From NCBI GenBank assembly GCA_018433675.1, contig JAHDQS010000005.1, positions 1 through 64,000 of the forward strand: DNA of 64,000 nucleotides. The letters are read 5' to 3'. Under the pieces are notes generated by a model. That model was given only the letters and a program-made list of their open reading frames with translations. It made no database searches and was not told the DNA's origin. This document shows positions 44,600 through 61,084 of the stretch, one piece after another. Each line of letters starts with the position of its first letter. Within the stretch, counting starts at the first letter, position 1. Source of the DNA: Clostridia bacterium (GTDB taxonomy: Bacteria; Bacillota; Peptococcia; DRI-13; SM3-B62). The position numbers and the translations under genes are program-made.

Positions 44600-46150
44600 C
44601 TAGAGGGGAATATTACCATGTTTTTTCGCCGGACGCGTCTCGCGCTTTGTGGCCAGCATTTCTAAGGCATTCGCCAAACGCGGACGAGTTTCCTGAGGTT
44701 CAATAACAATATCAACAAAACCTCTTTCGGCTGCTACATACGGTGTTGCAAACCTCTCCTTGTATTCCTCAATCATTTCCGCTCTCTTAGCTACCGGATC
44801 GTCGGCACCCTCTATTTCTTTACGGAAAATGATGTTAGCAGCACCATCGGCACCCATGACGGCAATTTCAGCTGTCGGCCAAGCAAAAACCTGATCTGCC
44901 CCTAAGTCCCGCGAACACATGGCTAAATATGAGCCACCATATGCCTTTCTTGTTACAATCGTTATTTTAGGCACCGTAGCTTCCGAGTACGCGTACAAAA
45001 GCTTAGCCCCGTGCCTGATGATTCCTCCAAACTCCTGATTTGTTCCCGGCAGGTAACCCGGAACATCAACGAAGTTCACAATGGGAATATTAAAGGCATC
45101 ACAAAAACGGATATGCCGGGACGCTTTGTCGGAGGCATTAATATCCAGGCAACCCGCCATAAACCTGGGCTGGTTGGCAATTATCCCGATGACTCTGCCG
45201 TTTACCCTGGCATAGCCGGTGAGAATATTTGTTGCATAGTATTGCATGGTCTGGAAAAACTCCCCGTTATCAACAACCTTTTTAATTACCTCGACCATAT
45301 CATAAGCCGCATTAGGATTATCCGGAATGATTTCATTTAGGGCTTCATCCATGCGCTCAGGGCTGTCTCCCGTTTCCAGATAAGGCGGTTCCTCCAGGTT
45401 ATTGGAAGGTAAAAAGCTCATCAGTTTTCTGATTTGCCCAAAACAATCCTCCTCGTCCTCTGCCGCAAAATGCGCTACCCCACTGACACGGTTATGAGTC
45501 ATAGCCCCGCCCAGCTTTTCGGAAGTAACTTCCTCCCCTGTAACGGCTTTAATGACCTGAGGTCCGGTGATAAACATTTGAGAAATGTTTTTGACCATAA
45601 AGACATAGTCGGTGATAGCAGGCGAATAAACCGCGCCGCCAGCGCTGGGTCCCATTATTACGGATATTTGAGGAATAACACCGGAGGCCAGTGTGTTCCG
45701 ATAAAAGATCTTTCCATAACCGCTTAAGGCGTCGACAGCCTCCTGGATTCTTGCCCCGCCGGAGTCGTTCAGTCCAATACAAGGAGCTCCCATTTGCATG
45801 GCCATATCCAGGACCTTGCATATTTTTTTCGCGTGCATTTCACCTAATGAACCGCCGAGAACGGTAAAATCCTGGGCAAAGACATACACCAGACGCCCCT
45901 CAATTGTCCCGTAACCGGTTACAACACCTTCCCCGGGGGCTTCTTTCCCGGCCATATCAAAGTTTACGCAGCGGTGTGTCATAAATTTATCGATTTCCGT
46001 AAAGGAATCGGGGTCTAGCAGCTTGTTGATCCTTTCCCGGGCAGTCAACTTGCCTTTCTGATGCTGTTTTTCTACAGCTTTCGGACCGCCCCCCATTTCA
46101 ATCTTTTTACTGCGTTCGAACAAATCATCGATTTTTTCTCTTGTACTCAT
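44600..46150 (-). CDS. mmdA: Methylmalonyl-CoA decarboxylase alpha subunit (carboxyltransferase)
   Basis: 516 residues; the acyl-CoA carboxyltransferase fold with both halves. GGGPKAVEKQHQKGKLTARER (20-40) and the acyl-CoA-binding LNDSGGARIQE (about 122-132), GPSAGGAVYSPA (about 167), GYLPGTNQE (about 368) and AYGGSYLAMCS (about 406-416) are typical. It moves CO2 from methylmalonyl-CoA to biotin. No biotin carboxylase is encoded here, so the complex acts as a decarboxylase and sodium pump. Confidence 0.95.
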   Translation of the reverse strand: MSTREKIDDLFERSKKIEMGGGPKAVEKQHQKGKLTARERINKLLDPDSFTEIDKFMTHRCVNFDMAGKEAPGEGVVTGYGTIEGRLVYVFAQDFTVLGGSLGEMHAKKICKVLDMAMQMGAPCIGLNDSGGARIQEAVDALSGYGKIFYRNTLASGVIPQISVIMGPSAGGAVYSPAITDYVFMVKNISQMFITGPQVIKAVTGEEVTSEKLGGAMTHNRVSGVAHFAAEDEEDCFGQIRKLMSFLPSNNLEEPPYLETGDSPERMDEALNEIIPDNPNAAYDMVEVIKKVVDNGEFFQTMQYYATNILTGYARVNGRVIGIIANQPRFMAGCLDINASDKASRHIRFCDAFNIPIVNFVDVPGYLPGTNQEFGGIIRHGAKLLYAYSEATVPKITIVTRKAYGGSYLAMCSRDLGADQVFAWPTAEIAVMGADGAANIIFRKEIEGADDPVAKRAEMIEEYKERFATPYVAAERGFVDIVIEPQETRPRLANALEMLATKRETRPAKKHGNIPL

Positions 46151-46184
46151 TTTTCGAACTACCTCTCTTTTCCGCTAATATTTA

Positions 46185-46589
46185 TTACTTCCTTTGAGAA
46201 AGCTCGAGCAAAACGCCCTTGGTAGCTTTCGGGTGCGCAAAGGCAATACTGGCACCACCTGCCCCGTAACGAGGCTTCTCATCAATCAATCTGACGCCTT
46301 TTTCTTTCAGCTCGGCCAGTGCTTCTTCGATGTTGTCCACACGCAGGGCAATATGCTGGATGCCCTCACCATTCTTTTCAATGAATCTGGCGATGGGTCC
46401 GTCTGGTGAAGTGGATTCCAACAATTCTAACTCACTGTCCCCACAAGGAAGAAAAGCAACCTTTACCTTTTGCTCTTCAACAACCTCCTTTCCTATTACC
46501 TCTAATCCCAGCACTTCGGTGTAGAATTTCAATGATTCTTCCAAGTCTTTCACCGCAATGCCGATGTGATCAACGCATAAAACCTTCAT
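46185..46589 (-). CDS. mce: Methylmalonyl-CoA epimerase
   Basis: 134 residues of VOC fold (two beta-alpha-beta-beta-beta units). Metal-binding His, Gln and Glu lie in [16 protein letters not shown] and LLELSQ. It interconverts (R)- and (S)-methylmalonyl-CoA, joining the mutase with the decarboxylase. It sits between meaB and mmdA. Confidence 0.95.
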
Positions 46590-46605
46590 AATTCTCAGCC
46601 TCCCT

Positions 46606-47544
46606 CTATTTCACAGTATCCGCAAGAATACTTTGTACCAGGGTATACGGATCGTTTTCTTTTCTTACCAGCTTGTCTATCTCTTCCTGAAAGCTTCCGC
46701 CTTTGACAAATTTCTCATTAACGTAACGGGCCATATTCTGGACTACCAGTTCTAACACTTCCGTCTCTAAACGCTCCCTGCGCCGTTTTCCTAACAATCC
46801 TGTTTTATCCAGGTGTTCCTTGTGTCTGATAACAGACTCAACCACTTCAATTATCCCTTTATTTTCCGAAGCTACCGTCATTAAAATCGGATGATCCCAT
46901 TCATCCTTTTCGGCGTTAAGCCCGAGCATCATTTCCAATTCAATGACCACACGGTTAGCCCCGTCTCGGTCTGCCTTGTTGACAATAAAAATATCGCCTA
47001 TTTCCAAGATCCCGGCTTTGATAGCCTGGATATCGTCTCCCAACCCGGGAACCGTCACAACAAGAATCGAATCCGCTGTTTTAATAATATCAACCTCGGA
47101 TTGCCCGACACCTACTGTCTCGATAAATATGTAATCAAATCCACAAGCATCAAGAATCTTCACCGCATAATGCGTAGCCTTGGATAAACCTCCCAGCTTA
47201 CCTCGTGTGCTTAAACTGCGAATGTATACCCCTTCATCCAAATTGAGATCGGACATCCGCACGCGATCCCCTAAAATAGCTCCTCCCGAAAAGGGACTCG
47301 CCGGGTCAACAGCCAGGATTGCCACTTTCTTCCCTCTCTTACGCAGCTCTTTTACAAGCTTGTCTGTCATGGTGCTCTTTCCGGAACCGGGCGGACCCGT
47401 AATCCCAACTATATGGGCCTTCCCTGTCAAGGGGAACATTTCCCGCAATGCCGTGACCGCTTCTTTTTCTTCGTTTTCTGTTATGCTTATTAACCGCGCA
47501 ATGGCACGGCGATTGCCCTTTAACGCTTTCTGCACAAGTTCCAT
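46606..47544 (-). CDS. meaB: Methylmalonyl-CoA mutase-associated GTPase MeaB
   Basis: 312 residues; a SIMIBI GTPase that guards B12 loading and repair of methylmalonyl-CoA mutase. Walker [10 protein letters not shown] (about 49-57), [18 protein letters not shown] (about 83-100) and NKADRDGAN (about 190) are clear. The start at 47544 (MELVQK) follows GGCGGTGTAGAC; an in-frame GTG at 47574 is an alternative. It lies between the small mutase subunit and mce. Confidence 0.95.
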
Positions 47545-47681
47545 GTCTACACCGCCCTTTGCGGGATAAGCCACCTATCCTAAGAATATAACCAAAAATC
47601 CCAAAATAGTCAAATAAAGCTCATAGTTAATCATCTAAGAAACTCCGACATAATCCCGCTGAATTCTGCCTAATTCGCACT

Positions 47682-48083
47682 TTATGCTTGTCTAACGTTG
47701 TTTTTAATATATTCAATGACCTTACCGGTAGGAGTACCCGGTGTGAATACCTCAGCAATCCCGTTTTCTTTTAGATAGGGAATATCAGCATCAGGTATGA
47801 CTCCACCGCCTAAAACCAGAACATCTTCAGATCCTTCTTCCGCAAGAAGCTTGACCACCTTGGGAAAAAGATGATTATGAGCGCCTGATAAAAGACTCAT
47901 CGCCACAACATCCACATCCTCCTGTACAGCCGCCGCCACTATTTGCTCCGGTGTCTGACGCAGACCTGAATAAATAACCTCCATGCCGGCATCTCTTAAG
48001 GCACGGGCAATAACTTTTGCTCCACGATCATGCCCATCCAATCCCGGCTTAGCAACGAGAACCCTAATTTGTTTTTCTGACAT
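47682..48083 (-). CDS. mcmA2: Methylmalonyl-CoA mutase small (B12-binding) subunit
   Basis: 133 residues; a stand-alone cobalamin-binding Rossmann domain with the DGHDRGAK motif, whose His coordinates cobalt (about 16-23), SLLSGAH (about 62) and GGGVIPD (about 92). It pairs with the catalytic subunit encoded just upstream, as in archaea and some Firmicutes where the mutase is split. Confidence 0.95.
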
Positions 48084-48119
48084 TTTTCCATACCTCCATC
48101 CAGTCTTTTGAAATAATAG

Positions 48120-49799
48120 CTACAGAATCTCGACCGGTCTATATTCTCCGAAGATTTCCCTCATCACATCGCAAATCTCGCCCTCCGACGCGTAAACACG
48201 TACAGCATCAAGAATATATGGCATTAGATTAGCATCCGTTTTCGCGGCTTCCCGCAGAACAGAAAGCTTCGACTTAACAGCAACATTATCACGGGATTCC
48301 TTTAAAGCCTTTAGTTTTTTAACCTGAGCTTCTCCCACGGAAGGATCAACACGGAGCAGTCCCTCAATGGGTTTCTCCTCCACCTGGAATTTATTCATAC
48401 CGACAACTATTCTCTCATTAGCCTCTACTTCCTTCTGATAAGCATAGGAACTGTCGGCAATTTCCTTCTGTATATAACCCTGTTCAATTGCTTTGGCCGC
48501 TCCGCCCAGCGCATCTATCTTTTCAATATACTCCAAGGCCTTCTTTTCAATCTCATTGGTGAGGCTTTCCACATAGTAAGATCCGGCCAGGGGATCAATC
48601 GTATCACAGACACCTGATTCATAAGCCACAATCTGTTGTGTCCTCAGCGCTATCCGTACTGATTCCTCAGAAGGCAGTGCCAAAGCCTCATCCTTAGAAT
48701 TTGTATGCAGGGACTGGGTACCCCCTAAAACTGCGGCCAATGTTTGGATGGCAACACGCACTATATTGTTCTCCGGCTGTTGTGCGGTCAACGTTGAGCC
48801 ACCGGTTTGAGTATGGAAACGCAGCATCCAGGAACGCGGGTTCTTCGCACCGAAACGTTCTCTCATGATTTTTGCCCACAGTCTGCGAGCAACCCTGAAT
48901 TTTGCCACCTCTTCCAAAAGATCGTTATGTGCATTAAAGAAAAATGACAGCCTGCCGGCAAAACCGTCAACATCAAGACCTGCCTTAATGGCCGCATCAA
49001 CATAGGCAATGCCGTCTGCTAGCGTGAAGGCCACCTCTTGAGCAGCTGTCGAACCGGCTTCACGAATATGATAACCTGAAATAGATATTGTGTTCCAGTT
49101 CGGAACATTCTTGGAGCAAAACTCAAAGATATTAGTAATCAAACGCATAGATGGTTCCGGCGGATAAATATATGTACCCCTCGCCGCATATTCCTTGAGA
49201 ATATCATTCTGGATAGTGCCTTGAAGCTTATCCGGTGTTACCCCCTGTTTTTCCGCAACAGCAATATACATGGCTAAAAGCACCGAGGCCGGAGCATTAA
49301 TAGTCATCGAAGTACTAACCTTATCAAGTGGTATCTGGTTGAACAAAGTCTCCATATCCTGCAGCGTATCGATCGCAACACCAACTTTTCCAATTTCACC
49401 TTGGGCTATTTCCGCATCTGAATCATATCCGATCTGCGTAGGAAGGTCAAAAGCCACCGATAACCCTGTCTGTCCTTGATCCAGCAAGTACCTGTAGCGC
49501 TTATTGGAATCCTCTGCCGTGGCAAAACCGGCATATTGGCGCATTGTCCAGAACCGTCCTCTGTACATTGTTGGCTGTACACCACGGGTGTAAGGATATT
49601 CACCAGGCATGCCTAAATCCTTCATATAATCAGTATCTTGGTTCTCAAGCGGAGTATACAACCTCTCCACGGTAATGCCAGAAGTAGTCTCAAAATTCTC
49701 CTTGCGTTCCTTGAATCTCGACAGCGTCTTGGCAACCTGCCCTTTTTCCCACTCCTCTTTGGACAGGCTAATCTCCTTCAGTTTCTCCTTGTCATACAT
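48120..49799 (-). CDS. mcmA1: Methylmalonyl-CoA mutase large (catalytic) subunit
   Basis: 559 residues; the TIM-barrel half of the mutase that rearranges succinyl-CoA and (R)-methylmalonyl-CoA. [20 protein letters not shown] (about 70-90) is the acyl-CoA loop, followed by [10 protein letters not shown] and [12 protein letters not shown]. The barrel ends before a B12 domain, supplied by the separate small subunit. The ATG at 49799 follows GGAGC; a GTG just before is in frame. It leads the operon under a near-consensus promoter. A mutase for isobutyryl-CoA is less likely given mce and mmdA. Confidence 0.94.
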
Positions 49800-49898
49800 C
49801 ACCTTTGCGCTCCTTCCTGTTATTCATGTTCTTAATATCGGCTATTCCCAAGATTCTATTCTTAGGAACAAAAAATTTGGTAAAGTGCGCCCAGTTAC

Positions 49899-50188: not shown

Positions 50189-51388
50189 TTAAATCACGTC
50201 TTTTTCTCTTAAAATTTCTAACTCTTCCGGTCCCATTTCTAATAACTCTCCATAAATTTCCTCGTTGTGCTGACCTAAATCAGGTGCTAATCCCTTGGGG
50301 TTTGCAGGAGTCTCACTCAGCTTGATAGGTTGACCGATCATGCCAATTTTCCCCTCTGGATACTCATTCTCAATTACCATTTCGCGCGCAATAATCTGTG
50401 GGTCTTGTACTACCTTTGATACATCATTAATTGGAGTAATCGGAACATGATCACCCAATCCTTCCATCAGTTCTTCAATTGTATACCTAGATATCCACTC
50501 TTCCACCTTTGGTTTGATTTTTTCTTCGTAGACACTTTGTACTTGTCTTTTTACCATAGTATCAATCTCAGGTATCTCGGCAAACTCTGGCTCGCCAAAG
50601 AATTCACAAGCTTTATTCCACAATTTATCCGTATATGCTCCGAAGAAAATGTAGCCATCCTTGGCTTTAAAAGCGCTGTAAGGCATAACAAAGGGATGAT
50701 CATTGCCGTTTGGCTTCTGAATTTTTCCCTCAACCATATAATTTACGACCATCGTCTCCGTCAAGGTTAGGGTAGAGTCAACCTGTCCTATATCAACTAA
50801 CTGCCCAATCCCTGTGTTTCTTACATGATGCAAGGCAGCCAACAAACCGACACCGGCATAAAGTCCGGCTGAAAAATCACCAATAATTGTCCCTACTCTA
50901 ACCGGTGGCCGGTCAGGGTAACCATTGATAGACCAGAGACCACTGAGGGCCTGAGCAACAGTGTCAAAAGCCGGCCGGTGAATGTGCGGGCCGTACTGTC
51001 CAAAGCCGCTGATTGCTACATATACGATTCTCGGGTTCACCTTTTTAAGCACATCGTAGTCAAGCCCGAATTTCTTCATCACACCCGGACGAAAATTCTC
51101 CACAATAGCATCTGCTTTTTTTACTAACCGCTTTAAAATCTCCTGGCCTTCCGGTTTTTTTAAGTTTAATGTGATCCCCTTTTTATTACGGTTATATTGC
51201 GCAAAATATCCACTAATCTTTTTTTCGCCATCACCCACAAATGGTATAAAGTTCCTCGCATCATCCATTGATTTCCAATGCTCTACCTTAATTACCTTTG
51301 CTCCCAGATCGGCAAGATGCATAGTACAAAAGGGCCCCGCAGCAAACCTTGTCAAATCAATAACTGTTATGTCCTCTAAAGGTCTCAC
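50189..51388 (-). CDS. Family III CoA-transferase (CaiB/BaiF type)
   Basis: 399 residues. It moves CoA between carboxylic acids. ITVIDLTRFAAGPFCTMHLADLGA at the N-terminus, KVEHWKS, YNRNKKGITLNLKKPEG (about 65-81) and the region LVDIGQVDS (about 171-179) holding the catalytic Asp are typical. Which acids it uses cannot be read from sequence. It follows the TRAP permease by about 270 bases and probably belongs to the same locus. It may activate the imported acid or acetoacetate. Confidence 0.9.
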   Translation of the reverse strand: MRPLEDITVIDLTRFAAGPFCTMHLADLGAKVIKVEHWKSMDDARNFIPFVGDGEKKISGYFAQYNRNKKGITLNLKKPEGQEILKRLVKKADAIVENFRPGVMKKFGLDYDVLKKVNPRIVYVAISGFGQYGPHIHRPAFDTVAQALSGLWSINGYPDRPPVRVGTIIGDFSAGLYAGVGLLAALHHVRNTGIGQLVDIGQVDSTLTLTETMVVNYMVEGKIQKPNGNDHPFVMPYSAFKAKDGYIFFGAYTDKLWNKACEFFGEPEFAEIPEIDTMVKRQVQSVYEEKIKPKVEEWISRYTIEELMEGLGDHVPITPINDVSKVVQDPQIIAREMVIENEYPEGKIGMIGQPIKLSETPANPKGLAPDLGQHNEEIYGELLEMGPEELEILREKDVI

Positions 51389-51657: not shown

Positions 51658-52944
51658 TTAAAATAACTGACTGGGCAGCCAGAGTGAAAGCGCCGGTACA
51701 AGTATAATAACTATTCCAATAATAAAGTAAGCTATGATGTATTTAATTACTCCCGCAGAAACCTCTGCAATAGGAGCATCACAAACACCCGCGGACACAT
51801 ATAAGGCAAGACCAAAGGGAGGGGAAATCTGCCCAATTTGCATTGCTAATGTCAACAAAACATTAAAATGAATCAGATCAACTCCTGTCGCTAACAGAGC
51901 CGGATACAGAATAGGTACTGTCAAGTATACAACCGGTAATACATCTATAAACATACCTAAAACAATGAATAGAATAAAACATGCAACCATCAAAGCAGTG
52001 GCACTTAATCCTATATTAATAATAAATCCACTAATCATTTGAGGAATCCGCAGAAAGGTAATGGGATTAGCAAAAAGTAATGCTCCCGCAATTAATATAA
52101 AAATCATCGCATTAGAATTCAAGGTACTAATCATTGTCTTTTTAAAAGCTGTCCAGGTCATTTTACGGTAAAGAAAGCTAATAACAATACTGTAAACAAC
52201 CGCTAGTCCGCCTGCTTCAGTGGGAGTAACAATACCATTATAAATGGAGCCTAAGACCGCTATTGGCATAAATATCGCCGGGAAGCCAAGTAATAAGGTT
52301 CTTCCTTTATTTTTCCATGAATAAATCTCCGGATTCACATTAAGCTTATCTTTATCTGCTTTAGGACTTAAATACCATGCCATTACACAAAGTACGATAC
52401 CTGACAAGATTCCCGGTATAACGCCTGACATAAATATGATACCCGTGTTCAATTGTACCATTGAAGCATAAACAATCATCATAATACTAGGTGGAATCAT
52501 TTGACCTAATGTACAACTTGCAGCCAGCAGGGAAGCAATAAATGAATTGTTATATCCCTTCTTTAACATCTCCGGTCTGGCAAATTCCGCCACTCCTGCC
52601 AGAGTTGCAGTGCTGGATCCTGTTATGGCAGCATAAATCATCGACATCACAACAGCCGTGACAGCTAATCCACCTCTCTTTCTTCCAAAAAAGGCATTTA
52701 CAAAATCAAAGATGTATTTTGACGGACCACAATATGCCATTATTGAACCAGCCATAAGGAAAAAAGTAATCGCCATTAATGTAAAGCTGTCAACGCTATT
52801 TAGAAAAGTAAGTGGTATTTGTGTTGGAGGGGAACCAATAACAAAATTAATCAGGAAGATGCCTCCTAAAGATAATGCCGCCCAAATTGGTATGCCTGAC
52901 ATAAACAAGACTATAGTAAGAATAAAACCTATTGCCATCGTCAT
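51658..52944 (-). CDS. TRAP transporter large permease (DctM family)
   Basis: 428 residues with about 12 membrane segments. GSSTATLAGVAEFARPEMLKKGY (about 108-130), TPTEAGG (about 238) and the C-terminal PPFGLALYVSAG (about 376-387) are family signatures. It forms the Na+-driven channel of a tripartite carboxylate importer with the DctQ and DctP genes just upstream. Its ATG follows the dctQ stop directly (TAA-ATG), so translation is coupled. Confidence 0.95.
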   Translation of the reverse strand: MTMAIGFILTIVLFMSGIPIWAALSLGGIFLINFVIGSPPTQIPLTFLNSVDSFTLMAITFFLMAGSIMAYCGPSKYIFDFVNAFFGRKRGGLAVTAVVMSMIYAAITGSSTATLAGVAEFARPEMLKKGYNNSFIASLLAASCTLGQMIPPSIMMIVYASMVQLNTGIIFMSGVIPGILSGIVLCVMAWYLSPKADKDKLNVNPEIYSWKNKGRTLLLGFPAIFMPIAVLGSIYNGIVTPTEAGGLAVVYSIVISFLYRKMTWTAFKKTMISTLNSNAMIFILIAGALLFANPITFLRIPQMISGFIINIGLSATALMVACFILFIVLGMFIDVLPVVYLTVPILYPALLATGVDLIHFNVLLTLAMQIGQISPPFGLALYVSAGVCDAPIAEVSAGVIKYIIAYFIIGIVIILVPALSLWLPSQLF

Positions 52945-53487
52945 TTATAAATCCTCCGCCCTTTCAATCGCAGATTCGGACGTACCCTTATCGTTAACTT
53001 GAGATCCTGCGGCAATCGTCACGGCGATTTTTAGTATACAATAGACAACTAAAACTGACATAGAAATGGGAATGATGCTGTAAGGTAATGCTTGGGGAAA
53101 GATCAAGGAGTAAGTTTTCATCTTATAAGCTATAGCTTCCCGTGTTAATAACAATCCCCAATAAAACAGTATAATGGAACAAATTAAAATACAAACTGCG
53201 CTATATATTTTAAACAGGCAAAGCAATTTAGCATCCTTTATTCTACCGGAAAAGAAGTCCATCACTATATGAGTTTCTTTATAGACCATCGGTCCACTTG
53301 CTATGAAAGCGGAACTAATTATTAAATACCTTAATAACTCTTCTGTCCACTCCCATGAAACATTAAAAAAATACCTTGCAAAGGTTATAATAAATACTAT
53401 TGCCGTGGCAACAATAAGTTCAATAGCTACGACAGGAGTTATTACTTTTGTCAGCTTTCTTTCAAATGCGGCTATTTTATGTTCCAT
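52945..53487 (-). CDS. TRAP transporter small permease (DctQ family)
   Basis: 180 residues with four hydrophobic helices (about 15-40, 50-72, 90-112 and 130-155). WEWTEELLRYL (about 45-55) is the conserved DctQ motif. It bridges the DctM permease and may be essential for stability. Its start at 53487 follows AAAGGAGGGCAAAATT. A strong hairpin lies between it and dctP. Confidence 0.92.
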   Translation of the reverse strand: MEHKIAAFERKLTKVITPVVAIELIVATAIVFIITFARYFFNVSWEWTEELLRYLIISSAFIASGPMVYKETHIVMDFFSGRIKDAKLLCLFKIYSAVCILICSIILFYWGLLLTREAIAYKMKTYSLIFPQALPYSIIPISMSVLVVYCILKIAVTIAAGSQVNDKGTSESAIERAEDL

Positions 53488-53512
53488 AATTTTGCCCTCC
53501 TTTCTTATTATC

Positions 53513-53547
53513 AGAATAGGGGTAATAATTCATATTACCCCTATTCT
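53513..53547 (-). other. Intercistronic hairpin between dctP and dctQ
   Basis: AGAATAGGGGTAATA (53513-53527) and TATTACCCCTATTCT (53533-53547) form a perfect 15-bp stem with a 5-base loop. No T-run follows on the minus strand. It likely protects the binding-protein message or partly stops transcription so that the binding protein exceeds the permease. Confidence 0.7.
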
Positions 53548-53578
53548 GCACATACTTTATCGAAGCAAGCCTCCATTC

Positions 53579-54670
53579 CTACTCGAGTTGTTCCCTCAAA
53601 CGATAAACCTCATCAATTAATTTTTGACCTTCCGGTCCTACAACCGACAAAAATTTCTCTATTGCTGCATCTCGAACATTATTATAATTAGCCCAGTCCT
53701 CTAGTTCTTCGTCGGGCACCATATATACCTCGACATTATGGGGCGGTTTTTGAATTGCTTCATATGCTTCTTTATTTCCTCTGGTCGTTTCATCATTACC
53801 ATATTTTTGGACCTCTGGCATAACTTCGTTTTGAATGATGTCTTGCAGGTCTTCCGGCAAGGATTCCCACCATTTCAAATTAAGTAGCATTGGAATGCTG
53901 TAACACTTGGAATATGGAAGTGTAACGTATTTAGTGTACCATTGTGCATCATGATAGTGTAAGATGCCCGTCTGCAACCCATCAAATACTCCTTGAGTTA
54001 ATCCAACCGTGACTTCCGCACCTGCTACGGTTATGGGAGCAGCTCCCAGTTTTTCTATTGAAAGTGCCGACAACAATCCGCCGGAATGTCTGATTTTCAG
54101 TCCTTCCATATCTTCTGGTTTTAAAATAGGCCGCTTGTTATTAGCAGCTATGAACTGACCATTTTGTGTATTAACAATACCCAGTCTGTAAATACCCTTT
54201 TCCTTTAATTTTTCTCTCAATGTCTCTTCAATAAGACTATCATACTGGTTTGCCATAATATAATGAGTAGAATCTAAGGGAGAAGATTTCCAGATAAATG
54301 GTATTGTATAAATCGCTTCTAACGGTTCTATAGTTTCGATAGCTCCACAAATGGAATACGCAGCTTCGACTGCTCCTGACTGAAGCAAGCTAATTTCTTT
54401 GTCGCTACCGGCGAGCTGTGCATTAGGAAAAATCTGTACTTCTACTCGACCGTTAGTTTTCTCTTCCACCAATTTTTTAAAATACAGGGAATTACGGCCG
54501 TGTTGCGTGGTCTCCGGATAAGCATGAGTCATGCGCATAACATATTTTTCATCTTCTCCTCCAGCGTCCCCTGTATCCCCTTCGGTTCCGGCATCATTTC
54601 CACAACCAACTAACATCAATGATATTATGCACACTATAGAAAACAAACTAATTAAAAACTTTCTCTTCAT
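53579..54670 (-). CDS. TRAP transporter solute-binding lipoprotein (DctP family)
   Basis: 363 residues. A signal peptide ends in the lipobox LVGC (about residues 20-23), so the mature protein is a membrane-anchored lipoprotein. The DctP fold follows, with AQLAGSDKEISLLQSGAVE (about 83-101) and LKIRHSGG (about 172-179); Arg175 would hold the substrate carboxylate. The start at 54670 (MKRKF) follows GGAGGTGTAATTG. Substrate is not known; the neighbours suggest mevalonate or a branched dicarboxylate. Confidence 0.92.
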   Translation of the reverse strand: MKRKFLISLFSIVCIISLMLVGCGNDAGTEGDTGDAGGEDEKYVMRMTHAYPETTQHGRNSLYFKKLVEEKTNGRVEVQIFPNAQLAGSDKEISLLQSGAVEAAYSICGAIETIEPLEAIYTIPFIWKSSPLDSTHYIMANQYDSLIEETLREKLKEKGIYRLGIVNTQNGQFIAANNKRPILKPEDMEGLKIRHSGGLLSALSIEKLGAAPITVAGAEVTVGLTQGVFDGLQTGILHYHDAQWYTKYVTLPYSKCYSIPMLLNLKWWESLPEDLQDIIQNEVMPEVQKYGNDETTRGNKEAYEAIQKPPHNVEVYMVPDEELEDWANYNNVRDAAIEKFLSVVGPEGQKLIDEVYRLREQLE

Positions 54671-54760
54671 CAATTACACCTCCACATTTTTATAATAGAC
54701 TTTGTCAGAAACATTTATTTAGATAACCATCCCACCTTTCCTATCACTAAATATTATTGT

Positions 54761-55189
54761 TTATAATGTTTTGTCCTTAGCCGGCATAGTAACCGCCTCT
54801 CCTTCAATGACCACCAGCCCAGTTTGGTTATAGCAAGTTGTTTTTAAGGTAAGTCTATTTTTTTCCACATCTTTCGCAATAACCTCAAGTTCTGCAGTAA
54901 TAGTATCTCCTAAAAACACCGGTGCCCTGAACTTAACGCTTTGACTAACATAAATCGAACCGCCTCCCGGAAGTTCACAACCCAATGTTGCTGCAATCAA
55001 ACTCACAGACAACATTCCATGAGCAATCCGCTTTTTAAACCTAGTCTTGCTTGCAAATTCTTCATTGATATGAACCGGATTTAAGTCACCGGTAGCACCG
55101 GCAAAGACAAGTACATCACCCTCAGTTATTGCTTTCGTCATAGAAGCCTTCTGCCCAACATAAATTTCACTCATTACCAGACTTTTCAT
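54761..55189 (-). CDS. MaoC-family acyl-CoA hydratase
   Basis: 142 residues; a single hotdog domain with the hydratase-2 motif: Asp and His in GDLNPVHINEEFA (about 35-47), then RIAHGMLS. It adds or removes water on an enoyl-CoA. The start at 55189 has GGAGGTTAAC upstream. It lies between the HMG-CoA reductase and the binding-protein gene, so it probably acts on a 3-hydroxyacyl- or enoyl-CoA of the same pathway, for example 3-methylglutaconyl-CoA to HMG-CoA. That substrate is inference. Confidence 0.85.
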   Translation of the reverse strand: MKSLVMSEIYVGQKASMTKAITEGDVLVFAGATGDLNPVHINEEFASKTRFKKRIAHGMLSVSLIAATLGCELPGGGSIYVSQSVKFRAPVFLGDTITAELEVIAKDVEKNRLTLKTTCYNQTGLVVIEGEAVTMPAKDKTL

Positions 55190-55249
55190 GTTAACCTCCA
55201 CTTATGCTTTTATCAACGAACATTGCTAATCGTTCTCTAGCAGCAACAC

Positions 55250-56515
55250 TCATTTTTTAGCTAGTTTTTCAATTAACTCTTGAGCATAATCCATTCTAAC
55301 CTTTTTCTCTTTGACCATAATCTCTACTACCTTATCGAGAATATCAGCTGTAGCACCAGCCATAATCGCCACATTTCTAGCGTGCAAGGACATATGTCCT
55401 CTCTGAATGCCTTCAGTTGCCAGGGCTCGCATGGCTGCAAGATTTTGTGCTAAACCTACCGTAGCAATGACTTCTCCCAATTCAGCCGCTGATTTAACAC
55501 CAAGTATTTTTACAGCAATTTTTGCTATTGGATGTACCTTCGTGGCCCCTCCGACCAAGCCAACGGCCATGGGCATTTCAATAGAACCAACTAGGTTGCC
55601 TTCTTCATTCTTTTCCCAAGTAGTTAAAGGACGGTAGACCCCAGTTCTGGCTGCATAACAGTGAGCACCAGATTCAATAGCCCTTGTGTCATTGCCTGTT
55701 GCGGTGACAATCGGAGTAATCCCGTTCATTATGCCCTTATTATGAGTGACCGCTCGATATGGATCAGCATCAGCAAAAGCATAGGCTGCCAATACTCCTT
55801 CCACGACCTCCTCGCCCCCCAGCGCATTCTTTGTTATTTCCACGCGGGCCCTAACCAGTCTTTTATCGGCCAAGTTAGAGAGAATGCGAAGATAAACACG
55901 TCCTCCAGTGATTCTTTCCACGTACGGAGCAACTGCCTCTGCCATTGTGTTTACTGTGTTTGCTCCCATGGCATCTAATGTATTGACAACTAAGTGCAAT
56001 ACAACCATTGGCCCAACAATAGAATCAAGAACCCTAACCTCCAAATCCCTCATGCCTCCCCCCAGAGATATAAGCATGGGGTCTTTATCGTTAGCAATTT
56101 TAATGATTTCTTCTTTATGCTCAAGTATTTTTAGTTTCGCATTAAAAGGATCCTTAACATTAACCACTTGCACTTGAGCCATCATAATAGATCCTGTATT
56201 GCTCGCAAAGAATCCTCCTGCCTCCCTGGCCATTTTGGCGGCATTGCTGGCTGCTGCAACCACTGAAGGTTCTTCAATAGCCATGGGAATCAAGTAGTCC
56301 TTTCCATTAATCATGAAGTTAAGAGCCACACCCACGGGTAATTGAAATGCACCAACTACGTTTTCGATCATATGATCAGCTTGGGAAACTTCAAGCCCGC
56401 CTGTATCCAACATAAGCTTTTGTTCTTTTTCTGTTAGATTGGCAAACTCTGCTACTTCTTTCAGTCTCTCCTCAACCTTCAACTTATAAAACCCTGAGAA
56501 ACTACTTGTTTTCAT
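55250..56515 (-). CDS. mvaA: HMG-CoA reductase, class II (degradative type)
   Basis: 421 residues. It interconverts mevalonate and HMG-CoA with NAD(P). The four catalytic residues of the Pseudomonas mevalonii enzyme have clear counterparts: Glu in IEEPSVVAAAS (about 81), Lys in HNKGIMNG (about 265), Asp in GNDTRAI (about 282) and His in SLHARN (about 379). DAMGANTVNT (about 182-191) belongs to the cofactor site. No mevalonate kinase or other isoprenoid gene is near; a transporter and a lyase are, so I read the direction as mevalonate oxidation. It is first after a sigma-54 promoter. Confidence 0.9.
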   Translation of the reverse strand: MKTSSFSGFYKLKVEERLKEVAEFANLTEKEQKLMLDTGGLEVSQADHMIENVVGAFQLPVGVALNFMINGKDYLIPMAIEEPSVVAAASNAAKMAREAGGFFASNTGSIMMAQVQVVNVKDPFNAKLKILEHKEEIIKIANDKDPMLISLGGGMRDLEVRVLDSIVGPMVVLHLVVNTLDAMGANTVNTMAEAVAPYVERITGGRVYLRILSNLADKRLVRARVEITKNALGGEEVVEGVLAAYAFADADPYRAVTHNKGIMNGITPIVTATGNDTRAIESGAHCYAARTGVYRPLTTWEKNEEGNLVGSIEMPMAVGLVGGATKVHPIAKIAVKILGVKSAAELGEVIATVGLAQNLAAMRALATEGIQRGHMSLHARNVAIMAGATADILDKVVEIMVKEKKVRMDYAQELIEKLAKK

Positions 56516-56683
56516 GTATTAATCCTTCCCTTCTTTATATTTTAAAAGGCTTCTTTAACAAAGCTCTTTCTTTGAAGCATACATTATCCAAGAATAGTAC
56601 TAATCTTGCCTGCATAATGTGTTTTATTTATTCTCTAGATTCTTTATTGCTGGATAAATAGCAACAACGTTACCCACATAACT

Positions 56684-56700
56684 TGCAATTCACATGCCAA
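56684..56700 (-). promoter_or_regulatory. Sigma-54 promoter upstream of HMG-CoA reductase
   Basis: Minus strand TTGGCATGTGAATTGCAA has GG (56697-56698) and GC (56685-56686) exactly 10 bases apart, the -24/-12 spacing of sigma-54 sites (TGGCA-N6-TTGCA). The start codon is about 170 bases downstream. An activator of the right class is encoded at 58332. Confidence 0.8.
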
Positions 56701-56772
56701 TACTGCAAAAAACGTTATTTAGACAGGTCTCTATGTTTTTGATAAAAAAAAACCTTTTTTAAAAAAGGCTGT

Positions 56773-56907
56773 TGTATACCTTTGTATACTAAGTCGATTA
56801 TCATTTTAGCTTATGTTATTCTGTGCTATCCCTTACTTCTCAATACTTTCAGTTGTTTTGCATGTGTATACACGGTATTGATTCCATTTGTTTACCCTGA
56901 TATACAC
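56773..56907. promoter_or_regulatory. Putative upstream activating sites (TGTATAC repeats)
   Basis: TGTATAC occurs at 56773-56779 and 56783-56789, 10 bases apart. A full palindrome GTGTATACAC is at 56864-56873, and a related TATACAC half-site at 56901-56907. They lie between the two divergent sigma-54 promoters, where a shared enhancer would be expected. The 631-base gap 56516-57146 holds no gene. Confidence 0.6.
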
Positions 56908-57084
56908 TATTTTACCGTTTCATGATTACTGATTATAATAATCAACCTTATTGCTGTTATTACAGAAAATATGTTTCCCTTTAATCCCCTCCGAATATTC
57001 TACTTAAGTTTCAAGCCATTGTATTGTCTACATAGCAAATTCAGCCTGCCAACTTCATAATATTGAGTAAAATAGCAAATCCCC

Positions 57085-57101
57085 TTGGCATAAATGTTGC
57101 A
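57085..57101 (+). promoter_or_regulatory. Sigma-54 promoter upstream of the DRE-TIM lyase
   Basis: TTGGCATAAATGTTGCAA has GG at 57087-57088 and GC at 57099-57100 with 10 bases between. The predicted start is near 57112, and the gene starts at 57147 after TTGGAGGTG. Confidence 0.8.
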
Positions 57102-57146
57102 ATATAACTTGTTACAATACTATTTTGGAGGTGAAAACAAACTCTT

Positions 57147-58229
57147 ATGTTCAAAAAACCAGAAAAAGTCTACATTGGGGATATTACTATCCGCGACGGT
57201 TTCCAGCATGAAGAAAAATACGTGTCGTTAGATGCCAAAACTACTTACGCTGAATTGTTAATACTAGCGGGTGCAAAGCGTTTAGAACTGACAAACTTCG
57301 GTAATCCCTATAATATGCCTCAGTTCAAAGATAGACATGAATTAATGAAACGTGTGCGTAACAGTAAAACTTTAAAAAATGCAAATATTAACTGGGATGA
57401 AATAGAGCTAACCGTTGTTACGATTCGTGAACGGGCCGTGGATTTAGCCATTGAAGCCAAAAAGGAAGGATACGGCCCGGACCGTATATTAATGATGGTT
57501 TCAACGGATGAAGAACACCATTATGCTAACTCCGGAACAACCCTGCCGGAATATTGGAAAGAGGCAGAACGCTGTATTAAAAAAGCCCGGGATGCCGGAA
57601 TTAAAATGAATGGTACCGTGAGCACGATCTGGGGCAGTCCTATCTCCGGTCCTACAAAATTAGAAGATGCGGTTTCGTTCACAAAGCATTGGCTGGAGAT
57701 CGGGGCACACGATGTCGAACACGCAGATCATGATGGTTCCTCCACTCCTGACGACGTCTACAGGTATTTTTCAATGCTTCTGGATGCAATTCCTGACCCC
57801 ATGAAACACATTGCCCACTTTCACACGACCCGCGGTTGGGGCTTAGCTAATGTTTATTCGGCTTTGCAAGCAGGTGTGATTTGTTTCGAAAGCACAATAG
57901 GAGGAATCGGCGGGCAGCCAGCCAATTTTCTTGACGATTGCCCTGTTGCCGGAACAGGTGAATATTATTATAAAAATCCTAATGAGGTAGGTCTTGTTTG
58001 CACAGAGGATATGGTACTTATGATGGAGGAAATGGGGATTGATACCGGCATTCATGTTGAAAGAATCCTTCAAATCGGTATTTTCCTGGAAAAAACTTTA
58101 AACCGTAGACTCCGCTCAGAATCGATTCTGTCCGGACCAATCCCCAAAAAACCTAATGAAGCTTTTAAAAGGATAGGTTTAAAGGAACGCAAACAAGTGC
58201 GAGGCGAACAATCTGACCAACGTTTTTAG
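57147..58229 (+). CDS. DRE-TIM metallolyase related to HMG-CoA lyase
   Basis: 360 residues. The barrel opens with DITIRDGFQHE (about 10-20), then the divalent-metal HFHTTRGWGLAN (about 225-236). In HMG-CoA lyase the next loop is GGLGGCP with a catalytic Cys; here it reads GGIGGQPANFLDDCPVAG (about 252-269), so a segment is inserted and the first Cys position is Gln. The C-terminal stretch is about 60 residues longer than the classical lyase at 60224. It may cleave a different branched hydroxyacyl-CoA or condense acyl-CoAs. Strong GGAGGTG site and own sigma-54 promoter. Confidence 0.75.
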   Translation: MFKKPEKVYIGDITIRDGFQHEEKYVSLDAKTTYAELLILAGAKRLELTNFGNPYNMPQFKDRHELMKRVRNSKTLKNANINWDEIELTVVTIRERAVDLAIEAKKEGYGPDRILMMVSTDEEHHYANSGTTLPEYWKEAERCIKKARDAGIKMNGTVSTIWGSPISGPTKLEDAVSFTKHWLEIGAHDVEHADHDGSSTPDDVYRYFSMLLDAIPDPMKHIAHFHTTRGWGLANVYSALQAGVICFESTIGGIGGQPANFLDDCPVAGTGEYYYKNPNEVGLVCTEDMVLMMEEMGIDTGIHVERILQIGIFLEKTLNRRLRSESILSGPIPKKPNEAFKRIGLKERKQVRGEQSDQRF

Positions 58230-58331: not shown

Positions 58332-60092
58332 CTACAAGTTAAGTTCTTTTAATTTCTTATAAAATGTTCTCCTGCTAACCCCTAGAAGCTTCATGGCCTC
58401 GCTTTTGTTGTTATTTGTTTGTATTAAAGCCTCTAAAATCGCTTTCTTTTCCTCATCCTTAACTCTGCCAACCAGCGGTTTTAATTGAGGGTTATCCGCC
58501 TGCTCCTCATTATTGTTGTTATCAGTTGCCCTCAGATACTCGGGAAGATTTTTGATTTTAATAATATCATTAGCCATTACAACAAGATGTTCTATGACGT
58601 TTTTTAGTTCACGAACATTCCCCGGCCAATGATAATTCAGTAAGAATCGTAAACATTCAGGAGAAAAGTTAACCTGTTTCTTGTAATTATCTTCATAGTA
58701 CTTCTTGTAATTCTCAACTAGATTAAAAGTGTCTATTTTTCTTTCTCGTAATGGGGGTAATATTATTGTAAACACATTTATTCTGTATAACAGGTCTTCC
58801 CTAAACCCCTTTTCTTCAATCATCTGAGTAAGGTTTTTATTTGTAGCGGATATAAATCTGACATCAATTTTTTTTGGCTTCATACCCCCCACTCTGTCTA
58901 ACTCTTTATCCTGTAAAAACCGTAATAGTTTTGTTTGCATAGTAAGAGGCATATCACCGATTTCATCCAAAAACAAGGTTCCCTCGTTAGCCTGCTCAAA
59001 CTTCCCGATTTTACCGCCTTTTTTGGCTCCGGTAAATGCCCCTTCTTCATATCCGAACAATTCGCTCTCCAATAGATTATCTGGAATGGCAGCGCAATTG
59101 ATTGAAACAAAGGGGCCATCCTTACGGGGACTGGCCTCATGAATTGCTTTTGCCAGTAATTCTTTGCCGGTACCGCTTTCTCCCAGGATTAAAACAGGAG
59201 ATTCTATTGATGCTACCTTTGCAGCCAGATTAAGCTGCTTACGCAGTTTCAAGCTGGTACCAATAATATTTTTGAAGGAATCCGGAAGATCATAGCCTGA
59301 TTTCATATCCTGGGTTAATAATTTATTGATCAAATTCATTTTTTCAAGTTCAGCCGCAATGTTAGTCATTTTGGTTATATCTGAAAAAACTGAAATGGCT
59401 CCTACTACTTCATCATAAAACTTAATTGGGGTGATATTTGCCATTATCAAGGTCCCTAAGCTTCTTATACTAATTATCTTGCCCACAACAGGTTCTATGG
59501 TTTTCAAGACATCTAATATTTTAGCCTCAGGTTCAATCTTACTTAAATATCGGCCAGTTATTTTTTGTATGTCTACCCCTAAAATATTACTATATGCCTG
59601 ATTGGCGTATAGAATTGTACTGTTTCTATCAACTAGAATAACCGCATCGTTTAGCTCGTCTAAAATGCACCTGGCTAAAGAAGTAGGACGCAAAATTTGC
59701 TTTAAAAATTGCTCCTCATTCATTACTTCTATCCTCTGTATCCTGTTTTTGACAAAGGGTAATATATTGATTACATCAATCAGTTTGCCCTCATAGTCTG
59801 TAATAAATATTTCTGTGTATTGCTCCGATGTTGAATAATATCTTTTTAAAATGTCGTCACTTGTTGTAGGCCTTTGAATGCTGATATAATACTCTGATAT
59901 ATAAGGAGCTATCGTTTGTTCTGTGCCTTCTATAAATAATATATCCTTAATTCTGACTACTCCCACCAGTTTTTTATCATGCCCCACCACAGGTAGACTA
60001 AAGCATTGGGTCTTCGTAAACATTTTTTTTGCATCAATTATATTGCTTTCCAGACTTAAAGCCTGGTCAAAAGGATACTGCAATACAATCAT
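58332..60092 (-). CDS. Sigma-54-dependent activator with CBS, PAS, AAA+ and Fis domains
   Basis: 586 residues. A CBS pair (about 1-115) is followed by a PAS domain (about 130-245), the AAA+ motor with Walker A GESGTGKE (about 295-302), the sigma-54-contacting GAFTGA (about 357-362) and Walker B LFLDEIGD (about 380), and a Fis-type helix-turn-helix (about 545-586, [19 protein letters not shown]). CBS domains often bind adenosyl ligands; a CoA or nucleotide signal is possible. Position next to two sigma-54 promoters makes it their likely activator. The ATG at 60092 has GGGAG close by; a TTG 9 bases in is another possible start. Confidence 0.93.
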
Positions 60093-60223
60093 CTCCCTGC
60101 CAAATCAACTGTTTTCATTATATCAAATCAATCTCAGACTGTCGATTATAAGCTCTTGTCAGTACGTTTGTTGTGTTTATCTACGATATTATCAGTCCAT
60201 ATTTGTCATATGCTCGGATAATG

Positions 60224-61084
60224 CTAGATTACTTTTTTTACAAACGCTGACGCCTCCAGGAGTTGGGATAAATCAAGTCCTGTCTTTATTCCCATCTGTT
60301 CCAGCATATTGACTAAATCCTCCGTAGCAATATTACCAACTGCACCGGGAGCAAAGGGACATCCCCCTAAGCCTCCTACCGCAGTTTCAATATTATTAAA
60401 ACCTTGCTGCAAGGCAACCAATGTATTGTCCAGGCCCATACCCTGGGCATCATGCAGATGTAATATAAAATCAAAGTCCTGGTATCTTTTTTTGAGTACA
60501 CTAAGCACTTCTGTAATTTGCTCAGGATTAGCTATACCGATAGTATCAGCTAAAGATATTTCATCAACGCGGGACTCAAGGCCCGCGTCTATCATTTTAA
60601 TGACTTGCGCAAGCGGTACATCACCCAGGAAAGGACAGCCAAAGGCCGTAGCAATTGCCAGCTTTATCTTTAATTTAGGATATTTTTTTCTTATGGCCTC
60701 TAAATCATTAAAGGATTCCTTAATCGTCCTCTTTACATTCTCCCGATTATGCCTCCAACTGGCCGAAATAACATAAGTTATCTTCCTTATCCCTGCCTCC
60801 CATGCTAGTTCCGCTCCCTTCAGATTCGGAACAAGGGCTGAAAACTCCACATTTTTATACTCATGGCACTCCCGTAGTATTTGAACCACTATTTCAGCGG
60901 CATCTTTCATTTGTGGTATATCTTGGGGGTTTACAAAAGAGGTTAACTCAATCTCTTTAATACCAGCCTTAAGCAGAGAAGAAATTACCGCAATTTTTGT
61001 CTCGGTGGGAATCCAGGTGTTTATGTTCTGAAACCCATCCCGCGGTCCTACCTCTATGATATGCACCGTATCCGGCAATTTCAT
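60224..61084 (-). CDS. mvaB: HMG-CoA lyase
   Basis: 286 residues; cleaves HMG-CoA to acetyl-CoA and acetoacetate. VGPRDGFQN (about 12-20) carries the DRE-type Arg-Asp, ELTSFVNP (about 46-53) follows, HLHDAQGMGLDN (about 203-214) gives the His pair for the metal, and GGLGGCPFAPGAVGN (about 233-247) holds the catalytic Cys. All expected catalytic residues are present, unlike the paralogue at 57147. The ATG at 61084 follows GGAAGGAG. It lies after birA and before the sigma-54 activator on the same strand, with no sigma-54 promoter of its own. Confidence 0.93.
   Translation of the reverse strand: MKLPDTVHIIEVGPRDGFQNINTWIPTETKIAVISSLLKAGIKEIELTSFVNPQDIPQMKDAAEIVVQILRECHEYKNVEFSALVPNLKGAELAWEAGIRKITYVISASWRHNRENVKRTIKESFNDLEAIRKKYPKLKIKLAIATAFGCPFLGDVPLAQVIKMIDAGLESRVDEISLADTIGIANPEQITEVLSVLKKRYQDFDFILHLHDAQGMGLDNTLVALQQGFNNIETAVGGLGGCPFAPGAVGNIATEDLVNMLEQMGIKTGLDLSQLLEASAFVKKVI

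Follow-up and report, generated by a model that had tools for sequence, protein, structure and literature searches.

Divergent sigma-54 promoters beside HMG-CoA catabolic genes in a Clostridia bacterium and a predicted two-site operator for a proposed common activator

In the 64,000-nt stretch of a Clostridia bacterium genome analysed here (the window), a 631-bp intergenic region separates a gene for an HMG-CoA reductase from one for an HMG-CoA-lyase-like protein and carries two elements that resemble sigma-54 promoters. An earlier note on this DNA proposed that one activator could drive both transcripts from the same TGTATAC sites. The locus therefore raises the question of whether both promoters are genuine, which protein acts on them and whether its binding sites are shared by the two promoters or divided between them.

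The two near-identical TTGGCA-N6-TTGCAA sites noted previously are both exact, as are their GG-N10-GC spacing and their opposite, outward orientation across 385 bases (Table 1). Each fits the pattern TGGCAY-N5-TTGCW with GG-N10-GC by which sigma-54-dependent promoters are recognized, and no other -24/-12 site on either strand of the 64 kb reaches the maximum score. When the intergenic region was subjected to first-order Markov shuffling, one site of comparable score arose in 4 of 3000 sequences and two arose in none. Across the 3.0-Mb genome, TTGGCA-N6-TTGCWW gives 23 matches versus 2 for the reversed control pattern, and the strict sites are therefore largely real; the pair described here is the sole back-to-back arrangement among the 23. 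The genome also encodes RpoN (PF04552, 202 bits, above the cut-off). Judged by these features, both promoters are very probably sigma-54 dependent.

Table 1. Positions of promoters, predicted operators and genes in the window, with operator dyads of related genomes.
Feature	Position	Strand	Description
sigma-54 -24/-12 promoter	56683-56700	minus	TTGGCATGTGAATTGCAA, exact consensus; predicted start ~56673; leader ~158 nt; targets HMG-CoA reductase/MaoC/TRAP/CoA-transferase genes
sigma-54 -24/-12 promoter	57085-57102	plus	TTGGCATAAATGTTGCAA, exact consensus; predicted start ~57112; leader ~35 nt; target 360-aa HMG-CoA-lyase-like gene
proximal operator (predicted)	56772-56791		TTGTATACCTTTGTATACTA; dyad score 13 of 14; conserved in four relatives
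distal operator (predicted)	56888-56907		TTGTTTACCCTGATATACAC; dyad score 12.5; aligned copy TTGTTTACATTTATATACAC in L087
possible auxiliary half-site	56864-56873		GTGTATACAC, between the operators; partly kept in congener as GTGTATACAA
degradative HMG-CoA reductase	55250-56515	minus	first gene of the minus operon; TIGR00532, 508 bits, cut-off 260
MaoC-type hydratase	54761-55201	minus	PF01575
TRAP transporter	51658-54673	minus	dctP 53579-54673, PF03480; dctQ 52945-53487, PF04290; dctM 51658-52944, PF06808
family III CoA-transferase	50189-51388	minus	PF02515
HMG-CoA-lyase-like DRE-TIM protein	57147-58229	plus	360 aa; PF00682, E 4e-30
candidate activator	58332-60092	minus	586 aa; CBS - PAS - AAA+ sigma-54 interaction - Fis-type HTH
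sigma-70-like promoter of activator gene	60117-60145	minus	TCGACA-17-TATAAT, TG-extended; 11/12 matches, consensus scan only
classical HMG-CoA lyase	60224-61084	minus	286 aa; upstream of activator gene, same strand
operator dyads, L087			TTGTTTACCTTTGTATACTA and TTGTTTACATTTATATACAC
operator dyads, L088			TTGTTTACATATGTATACAA and TTATATACCAGGTATACAA
operator dyads, L089			GTGTATACTAAGTATACAC and TTGTTTACATGGTATACAC
operator dyads, L098			TTGTATACTTAGTATACGT and a weaker second site

The predicted minus-strand operon points to a catabolic role. Its reductase scores above the TIGR00532 cut-off in a genome with no apparent mevalonate isoprenoid pathway. Because Dxr is present and no mevalonate kinase above the cut-off was found in the genome, the reductase is most likely catabolic and would work in the oxidative direction. 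The enzymes together most likely belong to a pathway that imports mevalonate, or a relative of it, and oxidizes it via HMG-CoA. The closest solved structures to the plus-strand gene product are HMG-CoA lyases. Compared with the 286-aa lyase, this protein is extended at its C terminus and carries two inserts around CPxA, the motif with the catalytic cysteine of the lyase (GGIGG-QPANFLDD-CPVA, then a nine-residue insert after CPVA). Its substrate may be other than HMG-CoA, and paralogues occur in L099, L100 and L097. Downstream of the operon and on the same strand (44600-49802, minus) are genes that, by reading of their translations alone, belong to a propionyl-CoA pathway and encode methylmalonyl-CoA mutase subunits, a GTPase chaperone, an epimerase and a carboxyltransferase.

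The candidate activator is encoded beyond the lyase-like gene, convergent with it and about 1.5 kb from the predicted operators. Its Pfam matches (PF00571, PF13426/PF00989, PF00158 with E 8e-72 and PF02954 with E 6e-11) include the AAA+ sigma-54 interaction and DNA-binding domains of a bacterial enhancer-binding protein, and repeated dyad upstream activating sequences (UAS), conserved among the orthologues of five genomes, lie upstream of the promoter. The best NCBIfam model for the protein is that of PrdR (NF041552), for which its score of 488.8 bits is well below the cut-off of 795, placing it outside the PrdR family. The sigma-70-like element preceding the gene suggests housekeeping expression. 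Full-length orthologues were found in four other genomes (L087, L088, L089 and L098), in each case beside an HMG-CoA reductase gene, and the recognition-helix sequence SRRTFYKK is common to all five activators.

Comparison of the regions from the window, its congener L087, L088 from another family, L089 and the distant L098 yielded a candidate operator, an 18-20-bp dyad of the form TTGTWTAC-N3/4-GTAWACAA. It is located upstream of the reductase operon in every one of the five genomes with a full-length activator orthologue. The best dyad score of each region was reached in 0 or 1 of 500 shuffles of that region, counts that are supportive and not independent, as the dyad model was drawn by eye from the same five regions that it describes. 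Two observations serve as independent checks of the predicted operator: such a dyad was found upstream of none of the remaining strict sigma-54 promoters in the genome, and the proximal site is the single exact match to the degenerate pattern in 3.0 Mb. In the rest of the 64-kb window, no background site has a dyad score of at least 12.

This operator revises the earlier reading. Two TGTATAC copies 10 bases apart are indeed found at 56773 and 56783, and the additional half-site that had been described is GATATACAC at 56899-56907. However, GATATACAC is one arm of a second full dyad whose other half, TTGTTTAC at 56888-56895, was missed, and as a result the central palindrome GTGTATACAC was taken for the main site. 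That perfect palindrome is present, but its supposed role as operator passes to the longer dyad, which is conserved instead; in L087 the palindrome is not kept perfect and reads GTGTATACAAG, and it would be auxiliary at best. Of 4000 shuffles, 2 gave at least four TGTATAC strand-hits, and none contained GTGTATACAC or GTATAC-N3/4-GTATAC. A scan of the genome for GTGTATACAC beside other -24/-12 elements, as had been suggested, returned two further copies, both in reading frames and without a good sigma-54 promoter nearby; the wider regulon was therefore not seen, and the palindrome was discarded as an operator or regulon marker. Also rejected were five one-mismatch dyads elsewhere in the genome, none of which has a sigma-54 site closer than 1.5 kb, and the other exact GTATAC-N3/4-GTATAC match (C53:233388), which has no sigma-54 promoter beside it.

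Gene order and promoter number vary among the five genomes. Both promoters match those of the window at every letter in L087 (9399, the minus counterpart, and 9750, the plus counterpart), even though the stretch separating them from the operators has diverged there and contains indels. The divergent pair recurs in L088 (10991, minus; 11279, plus) in the same relation to the genes. The window, L087 and L088 each have two divergent sigma-54 promoters with UAS between them, the UAS being assigned to the activator by co-occurrence. The reductase operon of L089 has a single sigma-54 promoter (12069), as does that of L098, where it is weaker (7963), and in both the activator gene is directly upstream. 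A TctA-family transporter replaces the TRAP transporter in these two genomes (10397-11752 in L089, 6314-7660 in L098) and the activator, operator, promoter and reductase are kept, hinting that the two transporter types share a substrate or have similar ones. Regulators in L005, L006, L008 and L101 that also sit near sigma-54 promoters were rejected as orthologues (about 44-48% identity, no CBS part, no exact dyad core), and a search around G310 revealed no more activator orthologues in the remaining genomes of that class.

The spacing of the sites bears on whether they are shared. In the window the proximal site is 83 bp upstream of the minus-strand -24 element and 305 bp upstream of that on the plus strand, and the distal site is almost midway (199 and 189 bp, respectively). 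Over the five genomes the minus-strand -24 element is 52-83 bp from the proximal and 122-200 bp from the distal site; the corresponding plus-strand distances are 255 and 140 bp in L087 and 222 and 131 bp in L088. Because the proximal and distal distances are kept in all five genomes, including the two without a divergent promoter, the array appears to belong to the reductase promoter.

These comparisons lend good support to the control of both back-to-back promoters by one activator acting from common sites. The proposal of the earlier note gains strength from the conservation seen in relatives and from the Fis-type activator gene adjacent to the region, and is altered in the detail of its operator. 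We consider it likely that one activator acting through two dyads coordinates sigma-54 transcription of an HMG-CoA/mevalonate catabolic regulon. The same activator might instead use divided enhancers, with the proximal site serving the minus promoter and the distal site the plus promoter. Such a division agrees with the spacing in the three divergent genomes, 52-83 bp between the minus promoter and the proximal site and 122-190 bp between the plus promoter and the distal site, and with nifJ/nifH, where UAS2/3 belong to PnifJ and UASnifH to PnifH (PMC6710252). We nonetheless regard it as rather unlikely: L089 and L098 have the two-site array but, of the two promoters, just the reductase one, so both sites serve that promoter there and the distal site does not owe its presence to a divergent one; in the window this site is nearly equidistant from both promoters. 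Since the array is independent of the divergent promoter in these two genomes, the comparison favours sharing, above all of the distal site: the plus promoter has access to an array that belongs to the reductase promoter. Points against the preferred reading are the 305 bp between the plus promoter and the proximal site, outside the usual 100-250 bp range (PMC6615313), and the location of the activator gene behind a convergent gene.

It is improbable that the TGTATAC dyads bind a different regulator, either a repressor or another activator, and that an unrelated activator drives the promoters. The genome does hold 39 first-look activator-like candidates and the operator was derived purely from conservation, but across five genomes the operator tracks the orthologous activator, in both gene orders and despite the switch between transporter families. 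Moreover, the dyads are at enhancer distance and fit the TGT-N10-12-ACA class of Fis-type activators (PMC6615313). Even less credible is the idea that only one -24/-12 element is functional or that the pair is a coincidence. A consensus match alone is no proof of use, and a sigma-70-like hexamer pair is also present at 56911-56939; yet two sites never arose together in shuffles of the region, and both elements are unchanged in the congener and recur in L088 in the same relation to the genes.

The preferred reading, in which one activator serves both promoters from common dyads, can be put as a scheme whose steps are drawn from established sigma-54 biology, starting from the promoters, operator conservation, domain make-up, gene content and rpoN as read at sequence level. 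The activator would probably be made from its sigma-70 promoter, and its dimers would bind the proximal and distal dyads. A signal to the CBS/PAS part, perhaps a CoA ester of the pathway or a nucleotide, would promote oligomerization by gating AAA+ assembly. The DNA could then be looped either way and sigma-54 polymerase remodelled at both promoters, jointly switching on the HMG-CoA-reductase/hydratase/TRAP/CoA-transferase genes and the HMG-CoA-lyase-like gene. With somewhat better than even confidence, we propose that the locus represents an undescribed sigma-54 regulon for mevalonate/HMG-CoA catabolism under a new CBS-PAS orthologous group recognizing TTGTWTAC-N3/4-GTAWACAA, and that a two-site enhancer belonging to one operon came to act on a divergent promoter as well.

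Catabolism by a reductase and a lyase has a counterpart in mvaAB of Pseudomonas mevalonii, a mevalonate catabolic operon for a degradative HMG-CoA reductase and an HMG-CoA lyase. The title of Rosenthal and Rodwell (1998), cited in PMC3985676, names the mvaAB activator MvaT. MvaT is not known to be a sigma-54 activator. A literature search for sigma-54 linked to mevalonate produced nothing relevant.

Precedents for two divergent sigma-54 promoters served from common activator sites are nifH/nifJ (PMC6710252) and orp1/orp2 (PMC3897727). The Klebsiella nifH/nifJ region likewise has two such promoters, one activator and three UAS in the common intergenic region, but it functions in nitrogen fixation, its UAS are reportedly divided between the promoters and its activator is NifA rather than a CBS-PAS protein (PMC6710252). 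The divergent orp1/orp2 operons of Desulfovibrio vulgaris are co-activated from palindromic sites by DVU2106, itself made from a sigma-70 promoter, as predicted for the activator here; in contrast, DVU2106 autorepresses its own promoter, IHF sites have been shown, and function and operator are different (PMC3897727). A DVUA0100 motif has also been predicted in the upstream region common to two other divergent D. vulgaris operons (PMC4641369). As described in PMC6615313, fifteen groups of Clostridiales one-component activators, including PrdR, use TGT-N10-12-ACA UAS, which are multiple and mostly 100-250 bp upstream, with the promoter consensus TTGGCAT-N5-TTGCT. The present system resembles these groups in its Fis-type HTH, UAS class, multiple UAS and promoter consensus. 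Table 1 of that article includes no HMG-CoA/mevalonate regulon, and its per-group motif table could hold an identical motif.

The layout is thus already known, whereas the regulator, its binding site and the target pathway appear undescribed; the activator group, operator and pathway are probably new. These findings offer a testable operator for an activator group apparently without an assignment, and tie sigma-54 to HMG-CoA/mevalonate catabolism. They also provide a natural series, in which a single promoter with two UAS can be compared with a divergent pair beside the same two UAS, for studying how one enhancer comes to serve two promoters.

Further observations concern regions outside the dyads. 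Clostridium bovifaecis (L008, 5351-8254) has an HMG-CoA reductase gene preceded by a sigma-54 promoter of its own (6913), together with a related activator that is shorter and is without the CBS part and the dyad operator; this is a predicted case of parallel sigma-54 control of HMG-CoA reductase. In the window, a search for an RNA element in the leader gave only sub-threshold Rfam matches. The perfect 16-bp palindrome CCTTTTTTAAAAAAGG (56753-56768) lies on the minus-promoter side of the proximal operator, adjoins a run of nine A residues and is largely kept in the congener; it could form a bend between that site and the promoter, or a hairpin.
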